Origin: a virus
Reading direction: 5' to 3' (one strand)
Virus record (IMG/VR): IMGVR_UViG_3300017788_000118
Span: 1 to 30,405 of that record
Length of the DNA: 30,405 bases
The translations under genes were made by a program, and so were the position numbers. The notes beneath the pieces are model-generated. The model was not told the DNA's origin and did not search any database. It worked only from the letters and a program-made list of their open reading frames with translations. Below, one piece after another: positions 6,844 through 11,962 of the stretch (the first letter of the stretch is position 1; each line of letters opens with the position of its first letter).

Positions 6844-6858
6844 GTACGATTATCGTAC
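6844..6858. promoter_or_regulatory. 15-bp palindrome, copy 1
   Basis: GTACGATTATCGTAC lies between the terminator and the stop of the last - strand gene. Its flanks (TTAGT before, AG after, on the + strand) match those of copy 2 on the opposite strand. Confidence 0.8.
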
Positions 6859-6862
6859 AGTA

Positions 6863-6958
6863 TTAGTTTGATGACTTGAACCAGTCACGACACGCCTGAC
6901 ACCATTTACTTTCAGGCGTACGCGGTGGTTCTTCGTCACAGATTTCGCAGCGTCTCAC
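6863..6958 (-). CDS. 31-aa zinc-ribbon mini-protein
   Basis: Reading MRRCEICDEEPPRTPESK then WCQACRDWFKSSN, this tiny protein has two CxxC pairs (residues 4/7 and 20/23), enough for one zinc ion. The GTG start overlaps the previous gene's TGA as GTGA, so it is translationally coupled. It is the last gene of the - strand operon, directly before palindrome copy 1 and the terminator. Its length is typical of small phage zinc knuckles; its function is unknown. Confidence 0.6.
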   Translation of the reverse strand: MRRCEICDEEPPRTPESKWCQACRDWFKSSN

Positions 6959-7083
6959 GACACCTCGAACTCTTCACAGATAGAGGCAACTGCGTCGTCT
7001 AACTGTTGGATTAGGTCTGATTTCTCACTCTCGGTAAGATGTTTAATCATGCCTCCAGTTAGTTTAGATTGCCACGCTATCAT
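6955..7083 (-). CDS. 42-aa unknown mini-protein
   Basis: The predicted product starts MIAWQSKLTGGMIKHL and continues with an acidic helix (TESEKSDLIQQLDDAV). The ATG at 7083 overlaps the upstream stop as ATGA. An internal ATG at residue 12, preceded by CTGGAGGC, has the better ribosome site and may be the true start (31 aa). No family is recognised. The tight overlaps on both ends make it likely to be a gene. Confidence 0.55.
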   Translation of the reverse strand: MIAWQSKLTGGMIKHLTESEKSDLIQQLDDAVASICEEFEVS

Positions 7084-7283
7084 GATACATGTACCCATTT
7101 CATAGCGGTACGAAGCAAGTTATCGTAATCGCCGGACATGGATTCAGCAAGATAAGTTTCTATCTCATCTTGCGGAGCGCCCCCTTTCTCGAGGGCGCTC
7201 TTTACTGTTGCCATGACGGCAAACGCGTTGCCGTCTCTTCCTGTCAGTTGTACTGACACATTGTCATACTTCGGTTTAGCCAT
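7080..7283 (-). CDS. conserved small actinophage protein
   Basis: The 67-aa product begins MAKPKYDNVSVQLTGRDGNA and ends SGDYDNLLRTAMKWVHVS. I recognise this as a type of small hypothetical protein recurrent in actinobacterial phages, with no known function; that recognition comes from memory, not a search. The start at 7283 is set by AGAAAG seven bases upstream. Palindrome copy 2 sits immediately before that ribosome site. Reading further upstream in the same frame would translate the palindrome itself, which I reject. Confidence 0.75.
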   Translation of the reverse strand: MAKPKYDNVSVQLTGRDGNAFAVMATVKSALEKGGAPQDEIETYLAESMSGDYDNLLRTAMKWVHVS

Positions 7284-7296
7284 TGGTATTCTTTCT

Positions 7297-7311
7297 GTAC
7301 GATTATCGTAC
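7297..7311. promoter_or_regulatory. 15-bp palindrome, copy 2
   Basis: This copy is intergenic, one base from the stop of the 39-aa membrane protein. On the - strand it is followed at once by AGAAAG, the ribosome site of the 67-aa gene. Confidence 0.85.
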
Positions 7312-7312
7312 A

Positions 7313-7432
7313 CTAAAGGGCTATCGCCAGCACTATGCCAACGACAACTAGGGTTGATAGGGAAGTCCATAGGATAAGCGCCAACTGTTCACTTACAGAC
7401 TCAATGAAATAGTTATCATCATTCTGCGTCAA
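7313..7432 (-). CDS. 39-aa single-span membrane protein
   Basis: The predicted product has a short polar N-terminus (MTQNDDNYFIESVSEQ) followed by about 22 hydrophobic residues (ALILWTSLSTLVVVGIVLAI) running to the C-terminus. It starts at TTG 7432, preceded by AAGGGAGGAG, a strong Shine-Dalgarno, inside the last codons of WhiB. Its stop lies one base before palindrome copy 2. It may be a holin-like, superinfection-related or other small membrane peptide. It is short and has a rare start, so confidence is moderate. Confidence 0.55.
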   Translation of the reverse strand: MTQNDDNYFIESVSEQLALILWTSLSTLVVVGIVLAIAL

Positions 7433-7754
7433 CTGGCTCTCCTCCCTTGTAGAAGCGAGAATCATAGGTATCTAGCATGAAGATAGGTGTGATTCCCAAC
7501 TTGTTCTGTATGGTTCTACGCTCTTGATAGTCAAGACCACCCCAAATGCCAGCAAGACCGGAGTAGGCGAGAGCATAGTTTAGGCACTCCTGTTGAGCAG
7601 GGCAATCTTTACAGATTTTCCTAGCCTTCATAGCGTCAGGAGTGCGTGACCATTGTTTAGAAGTACCGGCGACCTCTTGCGGAAACCACCAGTCTGCTGG
7701 ATAGTCTATACATGAACCTCGTTTCGAGAGTACGGGCATGTGGTTATCTATCAT
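7419..7754 (-). CDS. whiB: WhiB-family transcriptional regulator
   Basis: The 111-aa protein has the four iron-sulphur cysteines C15, C48-x2-C51-x5-C57, followed by the family's GIWGG turn (residues 69-73) and LDYQERR. WhiB-like proteins carry a 4Fe-4S cluster and act by binding region 4 of the primary sigma factor. Phage members, such as that of mycobacteriophage TM4, can repress the host whiB and affect superinfection. I chose the ATG at 7754, which has AGGAG six bases upstream; a TTG at 7760 is too close to that site. It overlaps the zinc-ribbon gene before it and the membrane-peptide gene after it. Confidence 0.9.
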   Translation of the reverse strand: MIDNHMPVLSKRGSCIDYPADWWFPQEVAGTSKQWSRTPDAMKARKICKDCPAQQECLNYALAYSGLAGIWGGLDYQERRTIQNKLGITPIFMLDTYDSRFYKGGEPVDAE

Positions 7755-7872
7755 GTCCAACTCCTATCTTAGAAAAGGCACACGCTTGACAGTATGCGTA
7801 AGTGCTATCGTCATAGTCCGGCACTACTAATGCCACACCACACTTATAGCACTCTCGTTGCTTGTATGTCAT
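7744..7872 (-). CDS. 42-aa zinc-ribbon mini-protein
   Basis: The predicted product contains RECYKCGVAL near the N-terminus and YCQACAF near residue 29, two CxxC pairs for one zinc ion. The ATG at 7872 lies inside the end of the 72-aa gene, with AAAGAG upstream; the stop overlaps the WhiB start by 11 bases. It fills the gap between those genes exactly. The function is unknown. Confidence 0.6.
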   Translation of the reverse strand: MTYKQRECYKCGVALVVPDYDDSTYAYCQACAFSKIGVGHDR

Positions 7873-8062
7873 TTTGTATCTCTTTCTCTAGCGGTAATTG
7901 TCCCGCTAGGGTTCGATACTCAGAGGCTCTGAGCATCAGGGCGTTGTACTTGGATACGTCGCCCTCCGCCAACGCCTTGTGAGCATTGGCGGAAAACAAC
8001 TCGGCTCGCTTACTTAGGTAGTAAGGAGTCGGTGGTACCGGCTTCCATGGCTTCTTAGCCAC
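7844..8062 (-). CDS. unknown 72-aa protein
   Basis: The product begins MAKKPWKPVPPTPYYLSKRA and continues with an amphipathic helix (LFSANAHKALAEGDVSKYNALMLRA). No motif or membrane segment is visible and the family is not recognised. It starts with GTG at 8062, overlapping the stop of the 58-aa gene (GTGGCTAA). It is probably a cotranslated accessory protein of the - strand operon. Confidence 0.65.
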   Translation of the reverse strand: MAKKPWKPVPPTPYYLSKRAELFSANAHKALAEGDVSKYNALMLRASEYRTLAGQLPLEKEIQNDIQATRVL

Positions 8063-11002: not shown

Positions 11003-11081
11003 ACGGCTAAGGGTAGCGTACCAGACCAACACAAACGGCTAGGGGGTAGCGATAGGCGAAACGGAACGGCTAGGGGTGGCG
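11001..11081 (+). repeat. three tandem AACGGCTAGGGGTAGCG repeats
   Basis: Copies begin at about 11001, 11034 and 11064 (AACGGCTAAGGGTAGCG, AACGGCTAGGGGGTAGCG, AACGGCTAGGGGTGGCG), spaced 30-33 bases apart, about three helical turns. The second shares CTAGGGGGTAGCGA with 12368-12381. Confidence 0.7.
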
Positions 11082-11176
11082 AACCGAACCCAACACAAAC
11101 TCACGGGTTGCTTTCAACACAAACCTTTCCAACACAAACCAAAGGAGTCTTCGACACAAACTTTTCCGACACAAAT
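11026..11176 (+). repeat. six direct (A/G)ACACAAA repeats
   Basis: Copies of C-R-ACACAAAC lie at 11027-11036, 11091-11100, 11115-11124, 11130-11139, 11152-11161 and 11167-11176, the last ending in T. All are in the same orientation. Further copies are at 6621-6630, 12005-12014 and 12034-12043. The last four in this array are spaced 15, 22 and 15 bases. Confidence 0.75.
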
Positions 11177-11185
11177 TTTCGGCGC

Positions 11186-11200
11186 GTACGAAAATCGTAC
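11186..11200. promoter_or_regulatory. 15-bp palindrome, copy 9 (variant centre)
   Basis: GTACGAAAATCGTAC keeps the GTACGA/TCGTAC half-sites but has AAA at the centre, showing which bases are free to vary. It lies between the repeat array and the terminator of the 196-aa gene. Confidence 0.75.
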
Positions 11201-11220
11201 ACGCGCTCCGGACATGGCGA

Positions 11221-11250
11221 AGCGCCCCACCCCCGAAAGGGTAGGGCGCT
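11221..11250 (-). terminator. hairpin terminator after the 196-aa gene
   Basis: AGCGCCCCACCC and GGGTAGGGCGCT pair over 12 positions with one C-A mismatch around a CCGAAA loop. It begins 14 bases after the - strand stop codon. No long U-run follows, so efficiency is uncertain. Confidence 0.55.
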
Positions 11251-11263
11251 CGGCGCTGAGAGT

Positions 11264-11854
11264 CTAGGCGCTCTTCTTGCTGATTACCGCCGGATGATTA
11301 GCGCGTGCTGCCTTGTTCACTCCGTCAATGAATCGGGTAAAGCGTTCCCACTCCTCGACATTATCCACTTTTACAGTTTCCAATTTATCGAGCGAAGAGA
11401 GGAATTTTGAGACTAGACCGGAAAGCGTTGTTTCCGTGTCTCCGTTGGTCTTCTTGGGGAGTTTATCAACTTTCTTGGCAAGTTCGGCGAAAGTCTTTGA
11501 GCCCTTTGCCAATTCCTCGAAAGCAGACTTTCCGCCAAGTCTCCGGCAACCCTGAATCGTCACCGCGAAAATCTCCTTCAGCGTTTCCTCTTTGCCACCT
11601 GCCAAGTCCTCGACCATGAAAGCCGAGTCGAAGTACTGAGCCCAAGTCGAGCGAATCGTTGGTGCTTGACCGGTTTCCTCGACCAACTGAATTGTTGCCT
11701 TGAGACCACGGACGGAGAGTTTCCCGTTCTCGACTTTAGCGCGAGCCTTTACCCAGAAGCCACGCTCAGCAACCATATCGAGCGAGCCCTTCAATTCGGA
11801 AGCAAGAGCCACATCTGCCATATCTTCAAACTTTGTTTCTTTGTTCTTTGTCAT
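11264..11854 (-). CDS. unknown 196-aa protein
   Basis: The predicted product begins MTKNKETKFEDMADVALASE and is mostly helical, with Lys/Glu-rich stretches. No enzyme motif, membrane span or zinc site is seen, and the family is not recognised. I chose the ATG at 11854, which follows AAAGGAAAAAAAA; an in-frame upstream start at 11899 would fall about at the predicted transcription start. It has its own promoter (11906-11934) and terminator, so it is a single-gene unit ahead of the main - strand operon. Monocistronic, strongly promoted genes in such a position are often early host-takeover or DNA-binding proteins; that is inference. Confidence 0.75.
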   Translation of the reverse strand: MTKNKETKFEDMADVALASELKGSLDMVAERGFWVKARAKVENGKLSVRGLKATIQLVEETGQAPTIRSTWAQYFDSAFMVEDLAGGKEETLKEIFAVTIQGCRRLGGKSAFEELAKGSKTFAELAKKVDKLPKKTNGDTETTLSGLVSKFLSSLDKLETVKVDNVEEWERFTRFIDGVNKAARANHPAVISKKSA

Positions 11855-11905
11855 TTTTTTTTCCTTTGTTTCTTTGAGTTGAGAGCCTTTCTCAACCACG
11901 GAAAA

Positions 11906-11934
11906 ATTTTACCATAACCCGCCCCGAGGAGCAA
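11906..11934 (-). promoter_or_regulatory. promoter for the 196-aa gene
   Basis: On the - strand, TTGCTC (11934-11929) and TAAAAT (11911-11906) are 17 bases apart. Palindrome copy 10 lies 13 bases upstream of the -35 box, where an activator or repressor could bind. Confidence 0.65.
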
Positions 11935-11947
11935 ATCACCGCGCCCC

Positions 11948-11962
11948 GTACGATAATCGTAC
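11948..11962. promoter_or_regulatory. 15-bp palindrome, copy 10
   Basis: GTACGATAATCGTAC on the + strand lies just upstream of the leftward promoter of the 196-aa gene. It is the rightmost copy I found. Confidence 0.8.

Follow-up and report, generated by a model that had tools for sequence, protein, structure and literature searches.

Class-specific palindromes dispersed through a phage gene block, and cl5 as their candidate reader

KorB of plasmid RK2 is a helix-turn-helix (HTH) protein that acts on a short palindrome, and the start-associated sequences of cluster K mycobacteriophages lie just before ribosome sites. The element studied here is a 15-bp palindrome, GTACGA-N3-TCGTAC, repeated in a leftward gene block of IMG/VR virus record IMGVR_UViG_3300017788_000118, of which positions 1 to 30,405 were analyzed (the whole stretch is called the window). 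Cluster O mycobacteriophages (Corndog, Firecracker) carry a 17-bp palindrome, TGTTCGG-N3-CCGAACA, which the available parts of PMC4351075 treat as a repeat of unknown function with a predicted, unidentified dimeric binder, in phages reported without integrase or lysogens. The same parts name the start-associated sequences of cluster K, and later papers, in their available text, restate the cluster O palindrome count. Stoperators of cluster A phages are asymmetric and oriented, and within the L5 clade their motifs resemble one another and differ in step with whole-genome distance (available text of PMC6550527); the L5-type repressor is able to bind as a monomer (accessible portions of PMC6550527 and PMC9283540). 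For ParB/parS and Noc/NBS, the accessible text of PMC7383237 reports that four residues set the specificity of ParB versus Noc. Searches of the openly licensed literature, to the extent that its text was accessible, turned up no description of palindrome classes in this phage group or of cl5, the protein that we propose below as their reader.

An exact scan found the palindrome ten times in the window, at the positions given below and nowhere else, in agreement with a first-pass annotation of this DNA. The next-best match, at position 54, has two mismatches and is the sole other match at two or fewer; 100 dinucleotide shuffles gave a mean of 0.79 and a maximum of 3 matches at that threshold, and none reached 11; a chance origin was rejected. 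All ten sites have exact dyad arms, and nine take the form GTACGAT-W-ATCGTAC, with TTA or TAA at the center; the tenth, at 11186, has AAA, so that the three centers reported earlier are borne out. The annotation also had the motif confined to one block of minus-strand genes, and this holds both in the window and in two longer relatives that carry GTACGA, where the homologous block holds 11 of 11 copies in G001 (40.7 kb) and 8 of 8 in G027 (41.9 kb). It had further supposed that the regulator was not encoded in the window. Instead, the best candidate is cl5 (11264 to 11854, minus strand), a 196-residue protein without a named family encoded by the first gene of the block, which is co-present with the palindromes and is the best tracker of palindrome class among 26 gene families. 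We regard the reading of the palindromes by cl5 as well supported by sequence comparison. The earlier idea of a regulon with dyad symmetry thus stands as to a sequence-specific reader and a stoperator-like distribution of sites, and the reader is probably dimeric because the sites are dyad symmetric.

Relatives were collected with TerL and cl3 queries, taking the best 80 of 599 and the best 80 of 409 confirmed relatives. From the resulting 204 loci we dropped pieces of the window (L001 to L004) and loci for which more than 80% of the sampled 31-mers recurred in a preceding record, leaving 130 records including the window. cl5 was present in 59 of these; L056 and L052 (short) were classless and L151 (partial) scored below 60, leaving 56, and removal of cl5 proteins of at least 95% identity gave 52 blocks, with TerL found in 49. 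These 52 nonredundant blocks hold 12 palindrome classes, with one dominant class per phage. GTACGA is found in 22 and a different palindrome in 30. The other classes with a 3-bp spacer are GGTCGG, GTTCGG (in G009, G019, L131, and L135), GTACGG, GTTAGG, GTCTGA, GTTGGA, GTGGGG, GCAGGA, and GTAGGA, and those with a 4-bp spacer are GTTTGG and GTAYGA. Classes have in common G at half-site positions 1 and 5, a constancy that is partly a choice of register, as class calling demanded G there; position 6 is A or G. An unfiltered palindrome list gave the same dominant palindromes. Over 50 blocks (two GTAYGA blocks were skipped), 387 sites are perfect and 16 have one mismatch. The seventh base is a pyrimidine on the left in 381 of the 387 and a purine on the right in 383, and sites with a 3-bp spacer form a 17-bp dyad of 7-3-7 shape. 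A further class, GCTCGG-N3-CCGAGC, occurs in seven copies in L173, where cl5 is not in the stretch covered; it falls outside the 12 tested classes.

Palindromes and cl5 occur together. Among 58 contigs spanning cl3 to TerL, cl5 is in 46 and not in 12, and a palindrome with at least three exact copies is found in 44 of the former and in none of the latter (Fisher P of 1e-10 on 44/2 versus 0/12). The remaining two cl5 contigs, G020 and L176, carry a set with a 4-bp spacer (GTAYGATATATCRTAC-like) found only by a second look. The commonest 10-mer in the 12 cl5-less contigs occurs at most three times, and these 12 are not independent losses: L046 and L181 look closely related, and L063 has a partial cl3.

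The protein also varies with palindrome class. For each of 26 gene families, we compared pairwise identity between same-class and different-class pairs and scored the separation as area under the curve (AUC). With all classes, cl5 reached 0.951 and the 25 other families ranged from 0.341 to 0.665, among them TerL (0.493), the WhiB-like (0.601) and sigma-like (0.429) proteins, cl2 (0.407), and cl3 (0.409). Without the GTACGA class, cl5 scored 0.995, and the HTH part of cl5 alone scored 0.969. A partial Mantel test on 49 taxa that controlled for TerL and for cl5 outside the HTH still correlated the HTH part, whose limits were set after the alignment was seen, with class (r = 0.52, a value reached by 0 of 999 permutations). 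Class changes 11 times on the cl5 tree, the minimum for 12 classes, against 19 on TerL, 18 on cl3, and 17 on cl2; the TerL tree nevertheless clusters class better than shuffles (19 versus a mean of 27). Linkage alone explains this pattern poorly and was rejected, because cl2 and cl3 carry sites yet track class worse than cl5. Three cl5-bearing records outside the covariation set (L211, L220, and L225), close kin of known ones, have the class expected from the helix in 3 of 3 cases.

That helix is part of a predicted HTH. AlphaFold2 models cl5 as all helical, with a mean predicted local distance difference test (pLDDT) score of 83, or 93.9 for residues 9 to 136 alone; in the model, helices 48 to 61 and 69 to 82 resemble an HTH, preceded by about 45 residues. 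The predicted recognition helix (residues 69 to 83; 11606 to 11650, minus strand) includes Gln73, with its codon at 11636 to 11638. Residue 73 ranked top in mutual information for half-site position 3: it is Gln in 30 of 30 proteins whose sites have A there and in none of 22 others. The class with C at this position has Glu and the class with G has Lys, a residue also seen in the GTTTGG class. Arg72 appears only in the GGTCGG class, which has G at position 2 (7 of 7). Such pairings of residues 72 and 73 with bases agree with common side-chain/base contacts. Supported independent pairs are concordant with the residue 73 rule in 2 of 2 cases on the cl5 tree and 7 of 7 on the TerL tree.

Comparison of close relatives suggests how class changes. 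G029 (GTTGGA) and L152 (GCAGGA) are 86% identical over the block, and five of six sites share an alignment column, with positions 2 and 3 altered in both arms and the flanks alike; in at least this pair, the sites were rewritten in place. The first-pass annotation had counted absence from the same sites in close relatives against its motif; GTACGA is indeed absent there in relatives of other classes, but the sites hold another palindrome. Other close pairs keep few site positions (1 of 7 for G011 and G013, 2 of 7 for G011 and L157). Over 5.8 kb on the TerL side, L153 (GTACGA) and L139 (GTTAGG) share 97.5% identity, with divergence already visible in the final 160 bp ahead of cl5; blastn gives no match between their cl5 genes, and the rest of the block is 72 to 85% alike. 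G009 (GTTCGG) and L126 (GTTAGG) have flanks 94 to 96% alike, with a 1-kb stretch at 84%, around a block at 78 to 81%. With such class differences across a divergent block between closely similar flanks, the block, cl5 included, behaves as a divergent allelic cassette, like heteroimmune or immunity cassettes.

A promoter region near 11.9 kb opens the block and an intrinsic-terminator-like hairpin (6840 to 6811, minus strand) closes it, with the sites spread in between. The uppermost (11948 to 11962) is centered roughly 20 bp ahead of the -35 box of P1 (11906 to 11934, minus strand), a putative cl5 promoter, TTGCTC-17-TAAAAT, read by eye where relatives have TTGACT-17-RATAAT; P1 fails a simple promoter filter, and another pair ranked higher in a separate promoter ranking. 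The next site (11186 to 11200; AAA on the plus strand) lies 63 bp past the cl5 stop codon, and the third (10889 to 10903) lies downstream of promoter P2 (10974 to 11002, minus strand; TTGACT-17-GATAAT) and 27 nucleotides (nt) before an ATG at 10861. A site at 10680 to 10694 is 11 nt before the ATG of the amidoligase-like gene cl2 at 10668 (or 2 nt before a GTG at 10677). Two sites are in the middle of cl2 (10284 to 10298, read as RTIIVQ, and 9551 to 9565, in the YDNRT frame), and one is at its 3' end (9098 to 9112), 18 nt before the start of the glutamine amidotransferase-like gene cl3. The last three lie within the 3' end of cl3 (8265 to 8279, frame YDYRT), 13 nt before an ATG at 7283 (7297 to 7311), and 3 nt ahead of the terminator stem (6844 to 6858). 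Copies beside the terminator, in mid-gene, and upstream of a promoter had been described before, and the copy after the cl5 stop adds to these. Seven of the ten copies continue with AG on the minus strand, as first noted; the added claim that they often run straight into a ribosome site is partly right, since a start codon follows within 11 to 27 nt of the end of four copies (7297, 9098, 10680, and 10889) but not of the others.

Placement recurs among relatives. In 46 of 49 blocks, a site is found no more than 60 nt ahead of the cl3 start. One lies near the cl5 start in 43 of 52, and in GTTCGG, GTACGG, and GTCTGA blocks it is 28 to 38 nt before the cl5 ATG. Sites occur inside cl2 in 36 of 49 blocks and inside cl3 in 15 of 49. 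Those inside cl2 use all three frames (14/21/12), which implies that DNA or RNA, not protein, is conserved. Conservation of a YDNRT peptide was accordingly rejected as the cause, the window site at 10284 being in another frame as well.

We propose that the ten window palindromes are operators for cl5, with GTACGATTATCGTAC as the cognate site of the window protein. A cl5 dimer would place one HTH on each 7-bp half-site (YGNNNGR), and the recognition helix, Gln73 included, would read the variable bases, as the covariation suggests. As cl5 accumulates, it would fill the site beside the promoter of its own gene and those across the 5-kb leftward operon, and the occupied sites may shut the operon down by blocking or looping. 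The same cl5 would silence a co-infecting phage with the same operators; for this reason, we suggest, the protein and its sites change in concert to give classes that do not cross-react, and blocks are swapped like immunity cassettes, a pattern seen in the comparisons above for which this would be the cause. A self-limiting silencer would explain the position of cl5 at the head of the operon, the adjoining site, and the spread of sites through the unit. Overall, we lean toward cl5 as a dimer that silences its operon, its own gene included, and whose specificity has diverged among phages in competition. Operon silencing would be the likeliest of several roles for cl5, and it is plausible that class diversity reflects exclusion between phages.

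Several results weigh against this proposal. Searches of phage records, Pfam, PHROGs, and PDB found no relative of known function for cl5: there was no match in 50,697 phage records (at E values up to 1 for the window protein and up to 10 for a GTTCGG-class protein), and only scattered weak matches came from Pfam, PHROGs, and PDB sequences (best E value 0.003, in one of 23 members). Fold matches are weak as well (best Z about 3), and structure libraries gave no match at an E value of 0.001 or less. The GTACGA class, which occurs at scattered points of the TerL tree, accounts for 231 of the 273 same-class pairs; once it is left out, TerL, cl3, cl2, and WhiB reach AUCs of 0.834 to 0.880 (WhiB, 0.878), so the remaining classes partly follow descent. 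The rest of cl5 also tracks class (AUC of 0.917). The A/non-A state of position 3 changes just three times on the cl5 tree; independent support for the residue 73 rule is thus modest, and one ancestry counted many times is a real concern.

Promoters and site centers add to these difficulties. A consensus promoter before cl5 passes the filter in just 24 of 52 blocks, and the window is not one of these. Among them the place of the site varies, with 17 centered 19 to 51 bp ahead of the -35 box, 4 past the -10 box, and 1 between the two. Center trinucleotides are biased on the sense strand (ATT 92 versus AAT 17, TTT 32 versus AAA 1, and TAA 117 versus TTA 75), most strongly in GGTCGG (TTT or ATT 52, AAA or AAT 2) and GTACGG (ATT 22, AAT 1); GTACGA has TAA 97 and TTA 59. 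A symmetric dimer does not explain the center bias, and a silencer does not explain the variable promoter distance. The bias recalls oriented stoperators or an RNA element. Finally, integrase, resolvase, and ParA (PF00589, PF00239, and PF13614) were found in none of 11 records, most of them fragments, leaving a lysogeny-type immunity without a visible vehicle.

Other explanations account for some of these features. Because many sites lie away from promoters, cl5 might read the palindromes to organize, segregate, replicate, or package DNA in the manner of ParB, Noc, or KorB, and ParB-family domains do recur among the weak fold matches (Z of 2.1 to 3.1). They fill 4 of 11 rows for the full cl5 model (KorB 1r71, Z of 3.1; Noc 7nfu and 6y93, 2.2; ParB 6t1f, 2.1) and 5 of 6 for the domain alone (SopB 3mky and 3mkw, ParB 6t1f and 7bnr, and Noc 6y93; Z of 2.2 to 2.6). 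The top rows, 6vq6 (Z of 3.2) for the full model and 1yoz (Z of 2.9) for the domain, are unrelated to or outside that family, and we do not claim ParB-family membership for cl5 from matches this weak. The Pfam matches of 23 cl5 members include no ParB family, the N-terminal CTPase domain among those looked for, the 11 records, most of them fragments, hold no ParA family, and the window sites are confined to one operon headed by cl5, with a site upstream of it; a DNA-organizing role is therefore somewhat unlikely. We judge as unlikely an L5-type immunity repressor acting through stoperators in a temperate phage. It would fit sites dispersed in genes and near start codons, center trinucleotides biased along transcription, cassette-like exchange, and many specificity classes, but the arms here are exactly symmetric, and neither integrase nor ParA was seen in the 11 records, which are mostly fragments.

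The palindromes might also act as RNA hairpins that affect translation, processing, or antitermination, whether or not cl5 is what reads the RNA. A 6-bp stem closed by a loop of 3 or 4 nt could form at each site, ribosome sites follow several of them, and loop sequences show the sense-strand bias. A G-U pair is retained in 7 of 16 one-mismatch sites, more than 1 in 6 (P = 0.01), or in 7 of 10 when transitions alone are counted (P = 0.17). However, where a promoter is recognized, 17 sites are upstream of the -35 box and so outside that transcript, and the stem sequence, beyond its pairing, is invariant within a phage and goes with an HTH-like protein. DNA is thus favored, and we give RNA hairpins little credence. 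Still less probable is a reader other than cl5 (a WhiB-like or sigma-like protein or a host factor), with cl5 merely traveling along: the window does encode WhiB-like and sigma-like proteins, and the AUC of WhiB is fairly high once the GTACGA class is left out, but with all classes both fall far below cl5 among the 26 families compared, and genes that carry sites track class less than cl5 does. Selfish palindromic repeats (REP- or RPE-like) that spread by insertion could account for short palindromes inside genes in several frames. This we consider extremely improbable, as G029 and L152 keep five of six positions with the arm bases alone changed and no gap at the site, and absence of palindromes goes with absence of cl5.

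The other genes of the block are all on the minus strand. Downstream of cl5 are a small protein (10661 to 10861), the amidoligase-like protein cl2 (9079 to 10677; phrog_16683, unknown function, E value 5e-32; phrog_2443, amidoligase, 9e-4), the class II glutamine amidotransferase-like protein cl3 (8228 to 9079; PF13230, 8e-7), a conserved small protein, cl18 (7844 to 8062), the WhiB-like protein cl4 (7419 to 7760; PF02467, 2e-14), and a small protein of phrog_1933 (7080 to 7283). A pattern scan of viral contigs found no relative of the amidoligase-like protein, and one of bacterial genome contigs found none of cl3. The host is probably actinobacterial, which is known only from the WhiB-like gene in the block. 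A sigma-factor-like phage protein (5712 to 6404, plus strand; Sigma70_r4, phrog_354) adjoins the block. In cl5-less contigs, a different small rightward gene occupies the matching place (3904 to 4449 in L023 and 14166 to 14708 in G017); it is cl66 in G017, G022, and G028, and the one in L023 looks similar.

A second repeated element, TTTGTGTYGG, occurs on the minus strand of the window at 1640, 6620, 11026, 11090, 11129, 11166, 12004, and 12033, with all eight copies on that strand (0 of 100 shuffles). The 130 records hold 407 copies, compared with 7 of a reversed control, and it lies on one strand only in each of the 68 records with at least three, on the same strand in all palindrome classes. 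It is also present in cl5-less contigs such as G017, G021, and L181. Being asymmetric and oriented, this element is more stoperator-like than the palindromes.

The observation of ten palindromes is real and richer than first stated. It offers cl5 as a candidate reader for dispersed phage palindromes of a kind whose reader and purpose were called unknown in cluster O (PMC4351075, available parts), along with a natural set of a dozen candidate protein-operator pairs in close relatives. With these, the evolution of DNA-binding specificity and possible operator-based exclusion among phages without lysogeny genes become testable by a few binding assays. More tentatively, cl5 could be a new phage DNA-binding family that runs immunity-like exclusion without visible lysogeny genes, through at least 12 orthogonal, cassette-exchanged protein-palindrome "passwords" with a partly readable residue-to-base rule, and cluster O could be a second case.

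Among known systems, the cluster K arrangement is matched by the sites that precede ribosome sites and not by those within genes, next to the terminator, or ahead of the first gene. ParB and Noc are, in the text available, HTH proteins on short palindromes, as proposed for cl5; cl5 differs from ParB, KorB, and Noc in having no ParB family match, no ParA partner in the 11 records (most of them fragments), and a weak fold match. L5-type stoperators are likewise dispersed sites read by one phage protein (here, the candidate cl5), with specificity that differs among relatives and a directional bias. Those stoperators are asymmetric, whereas here the two arms form a palindrome and the most frequent class turns up in scattered places on the terminase tree. 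No cl5-like open reading frame was detected by sequence in Firecracker (best E value 7.4), which has 34 exact copies of the cluster O palindrome. Cluster O sites span the whole genome of about 70 kb with little center orientation (PMC4351075, available text), whereas those described here keep to the block in the window, G001, and G027. Both sets nevertheless share the 7-3-7 shape, near-invariant arms, and many copies in and between the genes of a leftward operon, and the cluster O palindrome is the GTTCGG class found here.

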